From positions 1 through 55,065 of the forward strand of contig JAIYDB010000101.1 in the NCBI GenBank assembly GCA_027487695.1: DNA of 55,065 nt, in the 5' to 3' direction. A program made the translations under genes and the position numbers. Under the pieces are notes generated by a model. That model searched no databases. It was given only the letters and a program-made list of their open reading frames with translations, and was not told the DNA's origin. Below, piece after piece: positions 18,837-30,213 of this stretch (within the stretch, counting starts at the first letter, position 1; each line of letters starts with the position of its first letter). This stretch comes from Cytophagaceae bacterium. Its GTDB lineage: Bacteria > Bacteroidota > Bacteroidia > Cytophagales > Flexibacteraceae.

Positions 18837-18868
18837 TTTGCACTGGTGTTAAGAAATGATTACCTTTG
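18837..18868 (+). promoter_or_regulatory. Promoter of SRP RNA
   Basis: TTTG (18837-18840), a 20-bp spacer, then TACCTTTG (18861-18868): a complete Bacteroidota housekeeping promoter directly before the SRP RNA. Confidence 0.85.
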
Positions 18869-18870
18869 CA

Positions 18871-18963
18871 GCGGCAAATCGGTACGGTCAGCTCCTGCTG
18901 AACTCCCCCAGGTGCGGAAGCAAGCAAGGGTAGGTGGTTGAGCGACGCGATATTCGGTTTGCC
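18871..18963 (+). ncRNA. ffs: Signal recognition particle RNA, small bacterial type (4.5S)
   Basis: The core GGTGCGGAAGCAAGCA with flanking CCCCCA and AGGGTAGG is the conserved SRP domain IV that binds Ffh. Outer bases GGCAAA (18873-18878) pair with TTTGCC (18958-18963), closing a single long hairpin of about 93 nt. A T-rich run (ATTTTTATTTTTTAATT) follows and should terminate transcription. Ends are estimated to within a few bases. The 337-bp space between the giant gene and the HEPN gene holds this RNA, its promoter and nothing else I recognise. Confidence 0.93.
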
Positions 18964-18995
18964 ATTTTTATTTTTTAATTAGCATCTCTTATTTC

Positions 18996-21961: not shown

Positions 21962-23533
21962 CTATTCAGTAACCTCTGCACCTAAGCCATTTTCTTTCAA
22001 AAAGGTATTCCAAAGTTCTAGCTGGGTTTTCTTGAGTACCCTCGGGAATTTGTTTTGACCGCCTTCTTTTCCAAGTTTTTCTTTCATAAAGCGGTAAAAA
22101 TCAGACGATGAGAGCACCGTGATTTTGAGGTATTTTAAAGGGCCTTTCCTTTCAACGGCATAATCGTCGTTTAGAACAGAAAGCTCTTTGTCTAATAATT
22201 CCAAAGCTTTGTTTTTATCAAAACTATCGTCAGACCCTACATACCAATGGTGGGTAAATTCACTATTGCCTTTGTTGTTACTTCCGGCAACTGCATATTC
22301 TCTAATGGTAATATTCATTTGCTCTTGCACTTTGGTAAGCGCATGATCCATATTATCCATACTGAGGTGTTCACCGCATAATGAAATATAGTGTTTTGTG
22401 CGTCCTACAATCTTTATTTCTGCTTTGGCAACATTGCTAAAGCGCACCACATCGCCAATCATATAGCGCCAAGCACCTGCATTGGTACTTAGTAATATGG
22501 CATAATCTACCCCTTCCTGCACCTGATTAACCATATAGGTTTTAGGGTTGGCTACAAGCTCACCATCTTGGGTAAAGTTTTCGTCGTTAAAAGGGATAAA
22601 CTCTAAGAACAAACCATTATCTAATACCAAACGCATATCGGTATTAGGCTCCGCTTGGTAGGCTATAAAGCCTTCGCTAGCCAAATAGGTTTCCAGATAA
22701 AGTAGTGGCTTACCTAGCACCGCATCAAACCCTTTTCTGTAAGGCTCTATGCTCACCCCACCAAAACAAAATATGGTAAGGTTAGGCCATATTTCGTGGA
22801 TGTTTTTAACGTTGTAGTGCTTTATTATCTTTTCAATCAGAATCAGATTCCAAGCAGGGCTGCCTGCAATTACACCAATATCCCAATCTTTAGCCTTTAA
22901 GGTAATTTCTTCAAGCTTTTCTGACCAATTACTAATCTTGCTAATTCTTGCACCTGGCTTATAATAGTTGGTAAACCAAGTAGGTATTTTTTTTGCCTGA
23001 ATACCACTTAAATCGCCATCGTAATAGGTTCCTCTATTATTAAGTTTAGTGCTACCACCAAGCATTAAAACGCCAGTTGTAAAAACATCGGTTGGTAAAT
23101 CTTTATAATGAGCAAGTGTAAGTATTTGCCTAACACTAGTTTTCTGATTAGATCTTATTAAGTCCCTTGTTATAGGAATATGTTTGGTGCTTGCCTCGGA
23201 GGTTCCGCTACTTAGTGCAAAATACTTGATGGCACCTGGCCAAGCAACATCTTCCTGACCTTCTAAGTTCTTATGCCACCAATGCTTCGCCATTTCGTTG
23301 TATGAAAAAATGGGAACATTCTTCTTAAAATGGTAGTAAAACTCAGCACCATCACGCTCATAGGCTTTGAGGATATTCTTAAAGCCATATTGCTGACCAA
23401 ATTGGGTGTCTTCGGCTTTATCTAATAATTTTCTGAGGGTATTTTGTTGTTGTATAAAAGGGCTGCCTTTAGGTAGTTTAACCTTATTGCTAAGCTGGAT
23501 GCCTTTTTTTACTATAGAGCCTATTATTGACAT
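21962..23533 (-). CDS. GH3-family acyl-adenylate synthetase
   Basis: 523 residues related to the plant auxin-responsive GH3 acyl-acid amido synthetases of the ANL superfamily, which adenylate a carboxylate and transfer it to an amine. ATP-binding motif 1 is SSGTSEASTKHIPIT; later elements are GGVSIEPYRKG, YLASEGFIA (ATP-binding motif 2 region) and YMIGDVVRF (the D of motif 3), with a C-terminal lid (IVGRTKHYISLCGEHLS). Cytosolic, no signal peptide. Bacteroidota commonly carry one such gene, with no established substrate. It is a single gene with its own promoter and terminator. Confidence 0.9.
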   Translation of the reverse strand: MSIIGSIVKKGIQLSNKVKLPKGSPFIQQQNTLRKLLDKAEDTQFGQQYGFKNILKAYERDGAEFYYHFKKNVPIFSYNEMAKHWWHKNLEGQEDVAWPGAIKYFALSSGTSEASTKHIPITRDLIRSNQKTSVRQILTLAHYKDLPTDVFTTGVLMLGGSTKLNNRGTYYDGDLSGIQAKKIPTWFTNYYKPGARISKISNWSEKLEEITLKAKDWDIGVIAGSPAWNLILIEKIIKHYNVKNIHEIWPNLTIFCFGGVSIEPYRKGFDAVLGKPLLYLETYLASEGFIAYQAEPNTDMRLVLDNGLFLEFIPFNDENFTQDGELVANPKTYMVNQVQEGVDYAILLSTNAGAWRYMIGDVVRFSNVAKAEIKIVGRTKHYISLCGEHLSMDNMDHALTKVQEQMNITIREYAVAGSNNKGNSEFTHHWYVGSDDSFDKNKALELLDKELSVLNDDYAVERKGPLKYLKITVLSSSDFYRFMKEKLGKEGGQNKFPRVLKKTQLELWNTFLKENGLGAEVTE

Positions 23534-23627
23534 TTAACGTAAAATGCTAATTTAAAACTATAAAACTGATAAGTCCTAAAACTTATTATCTGGTTCAAAT
23601 AGTGGTGCAAGGCTATTTGGGTAAACG

Positions 23628-23658
23628 CAAATATACAAGGATAGCCCTACTAAACAAG
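23628..23658 (-). promoter_or_regulatory. Promoter of the GH3 gene
   Basis: On the minus strand CTTG (23658-23655), a 19-bp spacer, then TATATTTG (23635-23628). The leader would be about 90 nt. Confidence 0.6.
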
Positions 23659-23855
23659 GAAATACTAGTAGTGCTGTTGTTGTGTTTTGATTTTTATTTT
23701 GAAAATACATGAGATTAAAAAATAAATATAATGAATTTTTGTTTATTACAAAATTATATTACGCATTATGTCTGTATGGTTATTGCTTAGCCTAAAATCT
23801 TACAATCTTTGGAGAGTAAAAGGGGTATTGTATTATTAAGTATTAACCAATAAAA
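23659..23855. other. AT-rich spacer, nothing recognised
   Basis: It lies between the GH3 promoter and the terminator of the AT-hook gene. No open frame of coding character, repeat or RNA motif was seen. Confidence 0.5.
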
Positions 23856-23887
23856 AAAGGTCTTTAGTTGTGAAGCTAAAGACCTTT
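23856..23887 (-). terminator. Rho-independent terminator of the AT-hook gene
   Basis: AAAGGTCTTTAG (23856-23867) pairs with CTAAAGACCTTT (23876-23887) around an 8-nt loop. On the minus strand TTTTATTGG follows. Confidence 0.88.
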
Positions 23888-23908
23888 GTAATGCAATTAA
23901 ATTGCTAA

Positions 23909-24442
23909 TTATTTCTTGCTGTATAGTTTAATACGAGCATCTGAAGCTAGTTTTTTAGTGTTTACAGAATTGGTTTTTTCCATTTCCATTAAAGTAATGT
24001 AAACACCACGCTCAATTTGAGCAGTAAATTCAACTGGTAAACCATGGTGATTGATGTACATACCAGCAATTTCATTTTTCGTTTTTGGTTCAGCAGTCAA
24101 AGCCGATGCTGTGAAAGCAGCAACATCTGACATGTTTAAACGAATTTTATTAGGGCTTTTTGGCTTCTTAGCTTTAGCAGCCTTTGGAGCCTTAGGTGCT
24201 TTAGGAGCTTTAGGCTCAGCAGGAGCGGCTGCACTAGCAGCAACTGCATTCTTTTTAGGACGACCACGCTTTCCTCCTTTGCTAGCAGCGGTAGCTGGAG
24301 CAGTAATGGCAGCTACAGAAGCTGGAGCAGTAGTAGTACCAAAACGAGCAATTAAAGAATCGATTGACTTTAGAGTTTCTTCGTGCTCTGCAATTACTTG
24401 GGCACGCATTACTTGTAAGTTTTGTAAATAGCTATTAGCCAT
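23909..24442 (-). CDS. AT-hook, Lys/Ala/Pro-rich nucleoid-type DNA-binding protein
   Basis: 177 residues. Residues 1-35 are helical (LQVMRAQVIAEHEETLKSID). An Ala/Thr-rich linker leads to KGGKRGRPKKNA, a canonical AT-hook (GRP core flanked by Lys/Arg) at about 57-65. Then comes a histone-H1-like basic stretch of repeated KAP units (about 78-98). The C-terminal 80 residues (LNMSDVAAFTASALTAEPK to LASDARIKLYSKK) look like a small helical, winged-helix-like domain. It probably binds AT-rich minor groove and acts as a chromatin organiser or global regulator. The frame is complete. It has a terminator and a long AT-rich upstream region. Confidence 0.85.
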   Translation of the reverse strand: MANSYLQNLQVMRAQVIAEHEETLKSIDSLIARFGTTTAPASVAAITAPATAASKGGKRGRPKKNAVAASAAAPAEPKAPKAPKAPKAAKAKKPKSPNKIRLNMSDVAAFTASALTAEPKTKNEIAGMYINHHGLPVEFTAQIERGVYITLMEMEKTNSVNTKKLASDARIKLYSKK

Positions 24443-24880
24443 GTCAGATGAAAGTTAAGAATTAGTTAGTGTGTGATTCTGAGTACAAATAAAATTAATT
24501 ATTTTTATATATACATTATGTTGTATGTAAATAATTACCAATATTTTTCAGTTTTTGGTAAATACCTGCCTTTCTGGCATCTGTAGCTGTATATAATTGT
24601 TAATTGAATACTTGTAATGCATAGTTTGGGCTTTATTTGTTTTTAATGTTTGCCTTTCATTTATACTTATTAGCTCTTTATTGGTCTTGAAATTGGATTA
24701 ATATGGTTTGTGAATCGGTACTTTAAATGGTTTTTTGATAATTTTTCTTAATCTGCAAAGGTCTTTAAATAGACTAAAGTTAGTTTTATTAGGTATTTGC
24801 CCACTGTTCATATGCTTAAGAAATAGACCTATTGAATTGTGAGCGTTGAAAAGTTGGCGTTAAGTTTATTTCATATTTAA
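24443..24880. other. Long AT-rich intergenic region
   Basis: 438 bp of AT-rich DNA between the divergent AT-hook and helicase genes. A loose -7-like TTTATTTG lies on the minus strand shortly upstream of the AT-hook gene. No coding frame or RNA motif is convincing. Such DNA could itself be an AT-hook target, which is only a suggestion. Confidence 0.4.
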
Positions 24881-24911
24881 TTAGGTAAGGCAGAAATAAT
24901 GCCTACCTTTG
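24881..24911 (+). promoter_or_regulatory. Promoter of the DEAD-box helicase leader
   Basis: TTAG (24881-24884), a 19-bp spacer, then TACCTTTG (24904-24911). The -7 element is identical to that of the SRP RNA promoter. Confidence 0.7.
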
Positions 24912-24917
24912 CATCAC

Positions 24918-25138
24918 TTGTTCTGAGTACAGATTGGGTTGGGTTCTGCCAAAAGGGAAAGTGCAGAGAACGGCTTTATGGGTTGCGAAGGGCAGGTATG
25001 TGGAAAGCACACAGGTTCCTAACCTAGAAATTATTTGGGTTCCAAGTTGTTGCTCTCTACGGAGAGGTAAAGTAAAACAACAAAAACAAAAGAATTATTG
25101 ATTGGCATTTTTATGCTGGTTAATGCAAAACAAATTAA
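24918..25138 (+). promoter_or_regulatory. Structured 5' leader of the DEAD-box helicase gene (possible cis-regulatory RNA)
   Basis: About 220 nt between a strong promoter and the start codon. Several helices can be drawn: GTTCTGC (24943-24949) with GCAGAGAAC (24963-24971); TGTG/CACA around GAAAG (24999-25011); AGGTT/AACCT around CCT (25013-25025); and CTCTC-TACG-GAGAG (25053-25066), a UNCG tetraloop, inside GTTGTT/AACAAC (25046-25081). CTGCC (24946-24950) can instead pair with GGCAG (24991-24995), which would break the first helix. No terminator separates it from the gene. Long leaders on cold-shock DEAD-box mRNAs are known in other bacteria; a role here is inference. It does not match RNase P RNA, tmRNA or SRP RNA. 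Confidence 0.6.
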
Positions 25139-26863
25139 ATGGAAAAATTATTGTTCGCAGATCTTCCCCTATCGGTTGAAGTGAAGCAAGCCCTTGAGGC
25201 GATGGGTTTTGAAGAAGCTACACCCATTCAAGCTCAGGCAATTCCGCTGGTATTCCGTGGTGCCGATATTATTGGACAGGCGGCAACTGGTACCGGCAAA
25301 ACAGGAGCTTTTGGTATTCCTGCAATTGAGTTGATTGATGTAAAATCATCTAACACACAAGCGGTTATCCTTACTCCAACAAGAGAACTTGCTGTACAAG
25401 TAAGTGAAGAATTAAAGAAAATTGCTCAGTTCAAAAGAGGTCTTACTATTGGCGCTATCTATGGTGGCGAAAGTATTGATAGGCAAATTAGAGCGCTAAA
25501 AAGTGGTTTACACATTGTTGTAGGTACCCCAGGCAGAGTAATTGACCACTTAGAACGTGGTACACTTCAATTAGATAACACCGAAATGGTGGTGCTAGAT
25601 GAAGCAGATGAAATGTTGAACATGGGTTTCCGCGACGATATTGAATATATCTTAGGAAAACTTCCACAGGCTCACCAAACTTTATTGTTCTCTGCAACAA
25701 TGAGTAAGGATATTATGAACCTGACCAAGAAATACCAATATGAGCCTCAGATTGTTAAGTTAACAAAGGCGGAAAATGGTAATCCTAATATCCAACAGTT
25801 CTACTACAAAATGCACAGCCGTAAGAAAATGGATGCATTGGGTAAATTGATGGAGTTCCACAACATTAACCTAGGTATTGTATTCTGTAATACAAAACGT
25901 ATGGTTGATGAGTTGGTTGAAAACTTACAGATGCGTGGTATCCCTGCTGAAGGTTTACACGGCGATATGCAACAGAATAAGCGTAACGTAGTAATGGGCA
26001 AATTCCGTAAGGGTGGCCTTAAGCTATTAGTTGCTACCGATGTTGCTGCAAGAGGTATTGATGTAGATGATATTGAAGCAGTATTCAACTACGATTTACC
26101 AATGGACGATGAGTTCTATACTCACCGTATTGGTAGAACGGCACGTGCAGGCAAGAGCGGTATAAGCTTTAGCTTCGTATCTGACAGAGATAACTCTCGT
26201 TTGTATGATATTATGCGCTATACCAATATGAAAATTATTGAAGCGCAAGTGCCATCTGATGAGCAAATTGCAGTTGGTAAATTAGCTAAGTTCAAAGAAG
26301 GTATCTTAGAAGATGCTGCCGATGAAGCTTCATTAACTTATTTCCGAACTATGCTTGCTAACTTTGAAGCAGAAGGCATAAGTGCAGAATTGATTGCTAC
26401 CGTTCTTTTAAAGCGTAACTTAGATTTCGTTAAAAAGGCTGAAGAAAATAGAGATAGAGAACCAAGGTTTGAAAGAAGCGACCGTGGTGATAGACCTGAG
26501 CGCAGGGATAGACCTGAGCGTGGCGACAGACCAGAACGCAGAGACAGACCTGAGCGTGGCGATAGACCTGAACGTGGCGAACGTGCTCCGGGTTCTGTAC
26601 GCTTAAGCGATGAAGGTATGGTAAGACTTTTCTTTAGCGTAGGCCGCAGAGATAAAGTAAGACCAGGCGATTTAGTAGGTGCCATTGCTGGCGAAACTAA
26701 TATCCCAGGCAATAGCATTGGCAATATCGATATCTTCGATAAGTATAGCTTTGTAGAAGTTCCGGCTGAAATGGCTGAAACGGTTCTTCAAGTGATGGAT
26801 AACAACATGATTAGAAGAAAGAAAGTAAACGTAGAAATTGCTAAAATGGAACCAGCTATATAA
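25139..26863 (+). CDS. deaD: DEAD-box ATP-dependent RNA helicase (DeaD/CsdA type)
   Basis: 574 residues. Helicase core: Q-motif GFEEATPIQAQAIP, motif I ATGTGKT (Lys54), Ia PTREL, Ib TPGR, II DEAD (154-157), III SAT, V ARGIDV, VI HRIGRTARAG. Residues about 440-490 are a basic linker of repeated RPER(R/G)D units (six or so, encoded by a short imperfect tandem repeat near 26490-26580). The C-terminus (about 500-570, RLFFSVGRRDKVRPGDLVGA to MIRRKKVNVEIA) is a DbpA/CsdA-type RNA-binding RRM. The protein unwinds structured RNA in ribosome assembly and mRNA decay, mainly at low temperature. The gene has its own promoter, the structured leader and a strong terminator. Confidence 0.94.
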   Translation: MEKLLFADLPLSVEVKQALEAMGFEEATPIQAQAIPLVFRGADIIGQAATGTGKTGAFGIPAIELIDVKSSNTQAVILTPTRELAVQVSEELKKIAQFKRGLTIGAIYGGESIDRQIRALKSGLHIVVGTPGRVIDHLERGTLQLDNTEMVVLDEADEMLNMGFRDDIEYILGKLPQAHQTLLFSATMSKDIMNLTKKYQYEPQIVKLTKAENGNPNIQQFYYKMHSRKKMDALGKLMEFHNINLGIVFCNTKRMVDELVENLQMRGIPAEGLHGDMQQNKRNVVMGKFRKGGLKLLVATDVAARGIDVDDIEAVFNYDLPMDDEFYTHRIGRTARAGKSGISFSFVSDRDNSRLYDIMRYTNMKIIEAQVPSDEQIAVGKLAKFKEGILEDAADEASLTYFRTMLANFEAEGISAELIATVLLKRNLDFVKKAEENRDREPRFERSDRGDRPERRDRPERGDRPERRDRPERGDRPERGERAPGSVRLSDEGMVRLFFSVGRRDKVRPGDLVGAIAGETNIPGNSIGNIDIFDKYSFVEVPAEMAETVLQVMDNNMIRRKKVNVEIAKMEPAI

Positions 26864-26887
26864 GCTTCTACCATAAAGTTAATTCGT

Positions 26888-26911
26888 AAAGGCAGCCAAT
26901 TGGCTGCCTTT
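26888..26911 (+). terminator. Rho-independent terminator of deaD
   Basis: AAAGGCAGCC and GGCTGCCTTT pair perfectly around AATT, followed by TATTTTTATG. Confidence 0.92.
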
Positions 26912-27004
26912 TATTTTTATGATTTGAAGTAAATTACCCTCATTGCTTATATTGCTAGCAAATATTAAATTTCGACCCCATAGCACCTAAACTAAAAACC
27001 AGCA

Positions 27005-30129: not shown

Positions 30130-30213
30130 AGAGAGATGGCAGAGCGGTCGAATGCGGCGGTCTTGAAAACCGTTGACCCACAAGGTCCGGGGGTTCGAAT
30201 CCCTCTCTCTCTG
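30130..30213 (+). tRNA. tRNA-Ser (anticodon UGA)
   Basis: Acceptor AGAGAGA pairs with TCTCTCT. The anticodon loop is CTTGAAA between GCGGT and ACCGT. A class II variable arm (TGACCCACAAGGTCC) and the T-arm GGGGG-TTCGAAT-CCCTC follow, then discriminator G. CCA is not encoded. The first base is A (A1-U72) where bacterial tRNA-Ser usually has G. Confidence 0.96.

Follow-up and report, generated by a model that had tools for sequence, protein, structure and literature searches.

Does the long stretch between a promoter and a DEAD-box RNA helicase gene in a Cytophagaceae bacterium encode an RNA leader that controls the gene, or is it simply a distance that transcription has to cover? The locus lies in a window of 55,065 nucleotides (the whole stretch of DNA that was analysed, contig JAIYDB010000101.1) and comprises the following features:

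24883-24908, no strand assigned: imperfect inverted repeat AGGTAAGGCA/TGCCTACCT overlapping the promoter element, read directly
24904-24911, + strand: -7 element TACCTTTG of the Bacteroidota type, read from the sequence
24912-25138, + strand: mRNA leader of 227 nt, assuming that transcription starts a few nt past the promoter element
25139-26863, + strand: ORF of a DeaD/CsdA/CshA-type DEAD-box RNA helicase, 574 aa (Pfam and NCBIfam profiles)
26888-26911, + strand: terminator-like hairpin 3' of the helicase gene (terminator scan)

The first-pass annotation had placed a leader of about 220 nt between promoter and helicase gene, and its strings and coordinates are correct on reading. It had also called the promoter clean. 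The exact TACCTTTG, which we assign to the Bacteroidota -7 consensus (TAnnTTTG), is present at 24904-24911, but no obvious TTTG-type -33 element was seen at the usual distance when 24865-24912 was read by eye. The inverted repeat is possibly an operator, or a chance arrangement. The encoded protein matches the Pfam domains DEAD, Helicase_C and DbpA, with DeaD_dimer just over its cut-off. Because of these DEAD, Helicase_C, DbpA RNA-binding and DeaD_dimer domains, it was assigned to the DeaD/CsdA/CshA/DbpA type; none of the 25 NCBIfam matches listed reaches its cut-off, the best being CshA (516.6 against 646). The nearest orthologue found shares 56% protein identity with it. In its linker, encoded at 26480-26590, an arginine-rich stretch like RPERGDRPERRD recurs.

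The minimum free energy (MFE) predicted for the whole leader, -57.9 kcal/mol, was equalled by 5 of 200 dinucleotide shuffles (z -2.10) and, in a second run, by 15 of 300 (z -1.94), a modest excess of structure over shuffled sequence. The several hairpins noted earlier are present in the predicted folds (in the 5' domain and at 25021-25041, 25053-25066 and 25096-25125), as is the cUACGg tetraloop described inside a second stem:

24916-24997, + strand: 5' structured domain, closed by 24916-24924/24989-24997, containing CTGCC and GGCAG
25000-25060, + strand: competing long hairpin (25000-25004 with 25056-25060), pairing probability about 0.25 at 37 °C, energy -57.9
25021-25041, + strand: hairpin common to both middle folds, probability about 0.61-0.76
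25046-25081, + strand: predicted hairpin 25053-25066 with a cUACGg tetraloop, enclosed by the stem 25046-25051/25076-25081
25096-25125, + strand: 13-bp hairpin ending 13 nt 5' of the start codon, probability 0.72-1.0

Three of these pieces, chosen after folding so that their z-scores are post hoc, fold better than shuffles: the 5' domain (z -2.61, 3/300), the tetraloop hairpin (z -4.1, 0/300) and the 3' hairpin (z -3.4, 0/300). The helix 24943-24971 alone is at chance level (z -0.85, 59/300). In the isolated leader, the helix that closes the 5' domain has a probability of 0.89-0.98, with middle pairs down to 0.4-0.6. Adding 62 nt of coding sequence alters the MFE fold, and the domain is not secure because part of it then pairs with the gene. 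The tetraloop hairpin reaches 0.50-0.64 and its enclosing stem 0.25-0.50. Next to the gene, positions 25126-25138 are unpaired at 0.73-0.97 and the three bases of the AUG at 0.81, 0.43 and 0.46 (289-nt fold, 37 °C). Because most of the sequence just ahead of the start codon is predicted to be unpaired, there is no obvious translational on/off control; at 37 °C, the prediction does not place the ribosome-binding site and AUG in the heat-melting hairpin of a classical RNA thermometer. A consensus scan of 23500-27000 found no intrinsic terminator (hairpin and T-run) in the leader (24904-25139), such as a terminator-dependent riboswitch or attenuator would carry.

The explanation that we favour, which in our judgement stands evenly balanced between right and wrong, is that the window leader is a folded 5' untranslated leader setting helicase output after transcription. 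Transcription from the Bacteroidota-type promoter would yield a long folded leader on the mRNA of a DeaD/CsdA-type helicase, and this leader would tune how stable the mRNA is or how easily ribosomes reach it. Its probable inputs would be cold and the helicase itself, and helicase output would rise when unwinding capacity falls short. That this leader is functional, and that it responds to helicase level or temperature, we infer.

Relatives of the leader were sought at several levels. Rfam returned, for the whole window, only a Bacteroidales small SRP RNA (18865-18968) and a tRNA (30130-30213), with nothing at the leader at the gathering threshold, and a permissive scan of 24850-25180 gave three matches, the best at E 3.2. 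The earlier statement that the leader belongs to no known RNA class agrees with this lack of an Rfam match. A blastn search of 59 genomes found no credible homologue, only the leader itself and ten short hits, 25-35 bases long (E between 9.6e-4 and 0.0098), every one of them aligned to query positions 176-227 in the leader's 3' part. Among the upstream regions, blastn gave two weak matches to that of the window, each at E 0.002: L019 aligned to the promoter region and L171 to the A-rich 3' part. A covariance model of the leader (R1), built from this single sequence and with one pair mis-set (25021-25052 rather than 25041), retrieved itself and L058 at E 4.4 from 85 sources. The covariance search proposed in the first-pass annotation came back empty: across 241 genomes of the order, at E 0.1 and with stricter filters, R1 found only itself. 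These searches amount to a weak negative, given that a single genome represents the genus in the set, the nearest orthologue found is at 56% identity, R1 comes from one sequence with one mis-set pair, and the search of the 241 genomes used the stricter filters. A lack of conservation upstream of orthologous helicase genes had been named as what would refute the proposal; for this sequence conservation is indeed lacking, though the comparison spans large distances only. This lack also weighs against the favoured explanation, as without a detectable homologue nothing shows that the folds are selected.

The leader may, with a plausibility well short of even, be merely long, with a distant promoter, some 220 unselected nucleotides and folds as expected for length and composition. 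In favour are the lack of homologues in these searches, the helix 24943-24971 at chance and a z of only about -2, a value that also counts against a regulatory role. The three pieces that beat their shuffles, though picked after folding, argue the other way, as does the order-wide comparison, in which long leaders recur and fold better than controls.

For this comparison, an orthologue was found in 132 genomes of the order (129 at E 1e-140, plus three more of the family); 118 upstream regions were used and 14 left out. Seven f10 regions in which no ATG start was found were kept, although coding sequence may extend into part of them. The controls were 221 genes with at least 60 nt upstream, drawn from the window plus twenty 20-kb stretches by the longest-ATG ORF rule; they supersede an earlier set of 58 genes with 5 promoter matches. 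A strict TAYYTTTG occurs within 400 nt upstream of 78 of the 118 orthologues (38 of 51 genera) versus 30 of the 221 controls, both untrimmed at the upstream gene; the 13 genera lacking it within that distance weigh against the favoured explanation. The nearest TAYYTTTG is at least 100 nt upstream in 35 of 38 genera compared with 15 of 30 controls, both untrimmed (Fisher p 1.1e-4), all p-values in this comparison being guides because genera are not independent and the controls include untranscribed DNA. Median promoter distances are 170 in the 38 genera and 96 in the 30 controls (rank test p 0.0025), where a genus is represented by the median of its genomes and a control by a single gene. Trimming only the controls at the upstream gene left 10 of 25 at 100 nt or more (p 1.1e-5), and after a harsh trim on the helicase side (any frame open for 60 codons) that distance remained in 20 of 25 genera, compared with 10 of 25 among the trimmed controls (p 0.004). 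With like-for-like handling of the controls, the long-leader effect shrank yet persisted. Helicase leaders also fold better relative to shuffles (mean z -1.33 in 36 genera, last 150 nt at most, versus -0.67 in 90 control regions; p 0.0013), although z is positive in 6 of the 36 genera, a further point against the favoured explanation. Outside the order but within the same class, TAnnTTTG lies 84 and 99 nt upstream in two genomes. The upstream regions of contigs L085 and L089 are 81% and 87-89% identical to those of the order genera g7 and g64. Long leaders with more structure than chance at the helicase gene are a habit across the order, and because of this pattern we put a regulatory role of the window leader at roughly an even bet.

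A leader that is recognisably conserved was found in family f19 and in genus g38 of family f22, where the helicase leaders are about 100-115 nt long and alike (L109, L114, L115, L119, L121, L123, L126, L184, L201, L207, L150 and L156; matches L211-L226). Two folds are predicted for it. In the open fold, the stretch 5' of the start codon is free, whereas in the closed fold UCCUUACU pairs with AGUAAGGA right before the ATG. In ten aligned f19 leaders, both partners have changed in four pairs of the open fold, compared with 1.4 in shuffles (6/500), and its covariation score was matched by 1 of 500 shuffles, with the caveat that related sequences may beat shuffles in this tool without any structure. 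The closed fold is 92% paired, and shuffles did as well in 135 of 500 cases for pairing and 38 of 500 for score; it has little covariation support because its outer helix hardly varies, with a C-G to U-A change in f22. The predicted energy difference (open minus closed) spans -2.2 to +6.3 kcal/mol; it is within 3 kcal/mol in 9 of 16 sequences, and the closed fold is lower in 10 of 16.

A covariance model built from the ten f19 leaders (R2) matched 20 of the 241 genomes at E 0.1: 14 in f19, 2 in f22 and four others. All 16 matches in f19 and f22 end at the helicase start codon; four f19 genomes and both f22 genomes were outside the training set, the f22 pair having been seen beforehand. These placements, together with the paired changes in the open fold, count for the favoured explanation. 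The four others (G186, G178, G098 and G013; E 0.0066-0.057) were set aside as chance, with no helicase gene downstream in the stretch inspected. The f19 genome G028 is absent from the matches, and the three regions of f22 genus g29 (L116, L167, L181) gave none. R2 does not match the window leader: its hits in the window (E 5 and 6.9) lie away from it on the - strand, and in that genome it found nothing at E 0.1. An AAGGA-like sequence stands at -18 to -4 in 12 of 12 element-bearing leaders examined, compared with 0 of 106 other helicases of the order, 1 of 221 controls and 0 of 40 controls from f19/f22 genomes, in a test devised after the sequence had been noticed. This Shine-Dalgarno-like AAGGA sits in the start-codon-adjacent arm, hidden in one fold; it is absent before the window helicase.

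These leaders are the clearest instance of a broader account that we consider unlikely: throughout the order, the helicase gene would be controlled by fast-evolving leaders that take the helicase itself as input and have two near-equal folds, between which unwinding capacity selects, and the window would carry a lineage-specific version.

A narrower variant places the switch in the middle domain of the window leader, with the long hairpin 25000-25060 competing against the cUACGg hairpin and the stem 25046-25081. The region 25000-25081 does have two near-equal predicted folds (-57.9 and, with the tetraloop hairpin forced, -56.7), and on these energies it is the only alternative in the leader that we regard as real. 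The predicted balance moves with temperature: the long hairpin has a probability of 0.02 at 10 °C and reaches 0.35 at 42 °C, and over this range the outer stem 25046-25051/25076-25081 drops from 0.86 to 0.37. A cspA-like cold switch would couple such a refolding to access to the start codon; the shift predicted between 10 and 42 °C stands beside start-codon access computed at 37 °C only. RNAs commonly have near-equal alternative folds. That generality, the lack of homologues and the fact that neither fold reaches the start codon make a middle-domain switch distinctly improbable. Control by attenuation through a translated short upstream ORF is more improbable still: short ATG ORFs are present in the leader (24978-25022, 14 codons; 24998-25027, 9 codons), but such ORFs are expected by chance and the terminator scan gives none there.

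The switch originally proposed, in which heat or helicase moves CTGCC between the helix 24943-24971 and GGCAG, is scarcely conceivable and was rejected on predicted energies: CTGCC (24946-24950) and GGCAG (24991-24995) are confirmed and complementary, but their pairing has a probability of 0.0006 at 37 °C, which rises to 0.05 at 50 °C and is 0.0 to four decimals between 10 and 30 °C, and forcing it gives -53.0, a penalty of 4.9 kcal/mol. It is not credible because GGCAG is already held by 24918-24922 (0.97-0.98); CTGC pairs with 24963-24966 (0.97-0.99). What remains of the wider proposal of a structured leader with alternative folds is a long, structured helicase leader lacking an Rfam match, the frequency of long leaders at this gene in the order, and competing folds conserved in two other families, f19 and f22; the CTGCC/GGCAG pairing and conservation of this particular leader are not supported.

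Caulobacter and Synechocystis, from which two parallels come, belong to phyla other than that of the window organism. The rhlE gene of Caulobacter crescentus has a 186-nt stem-loop 5' UTR in front of a DEAD-box helicase; reporter expression is up in the rhlE mutant and down without the leader, and a translational fusion rises at 10 °C, evidence of self-regulation and post-transcriptional cold induction (PMC5472812). The window helicase shares with rhlE the long stem-loop leader. It differs in that RhlE is not of the DeaD type and that function was measured there. The window leader would most likely be a fast-evolving post-transcriptional control leader, possibly self-regulating like that of rhlE. 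Among helicase leaders in the literature covered, that of rhlE alone turned up with measurements of both self-regulation and a response to cold. CrhR of Synechocystis is an RNA helicase controlling its own expression with temperature (PMC3485376), a looser parallel: its control is not, in the text consulted, placed in a leader structure, and the words 'UTR' and 'untranslated' are absent from the main text. Structured leaders have been named as candidate cis-regulatory RNAs for genes of RNA metabolism (rne-II and Actino-pnp; PMC2864571); as far as described there, these are other RNAs at other genes, and the window leader has no Rfam match. The RhpA helicase of Helicobacter pylori is described as affecting expression of RNase J by way of the 5' region of rnj, not of its own gene. 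Shine-Dalgarno sequences are rare in Bacteroidia, and rpsU of Flavobacteriales uses one for self-regulation, in a paper whose main text lacks the word 'helicase' (PMC9976891). The f19/f22 helicase leaders resemble rpsU in carrying a Shine-Dalgarno sequence where their group seldom relies on it, unlike the window helicase. No Bacteroidota helicase leader was among the literature matches listed, in a search with most subscription journals outside it. If the pattern holds, unrelated leader sequences across the order would form a natural series of answers to one control problem, and the f19/f22 element would be a compact test, in a Shine-Dalgarno-poor group, of a helicase as the signal for its own RNA switch.

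Some further observations concern individual leaders. A mimic of 23S helix 92 in the leader could be a target of the DbpA domain. This candidate was rejected, a hairpin of at least 3 pairs on a UGUUC loop occurring in 1 of 78 leaders, 2 of 184 controls and not in the window. In the leaders of genus g17 (perhaps Hymenobacter; alignment A6), the 5' end pairs with a downstream segment in 11 of 11 sequences; this segment mostly lies about 30 nt before the assigned start, and 5 of 26 predicted pairs are changed on both sides. The sequence ATAAATGACGAATA is common to leaders of two families (L186, L189 and L204 of genus g94, and L147 of genus g60). Finally, the contig L023 (CALPQG020000277.1), titled Bifidobacterium breve, has the same length (4101) and the same helicase leader as contig C277 of the order genome G096 (L106), and is probably a mislabelled MAG.
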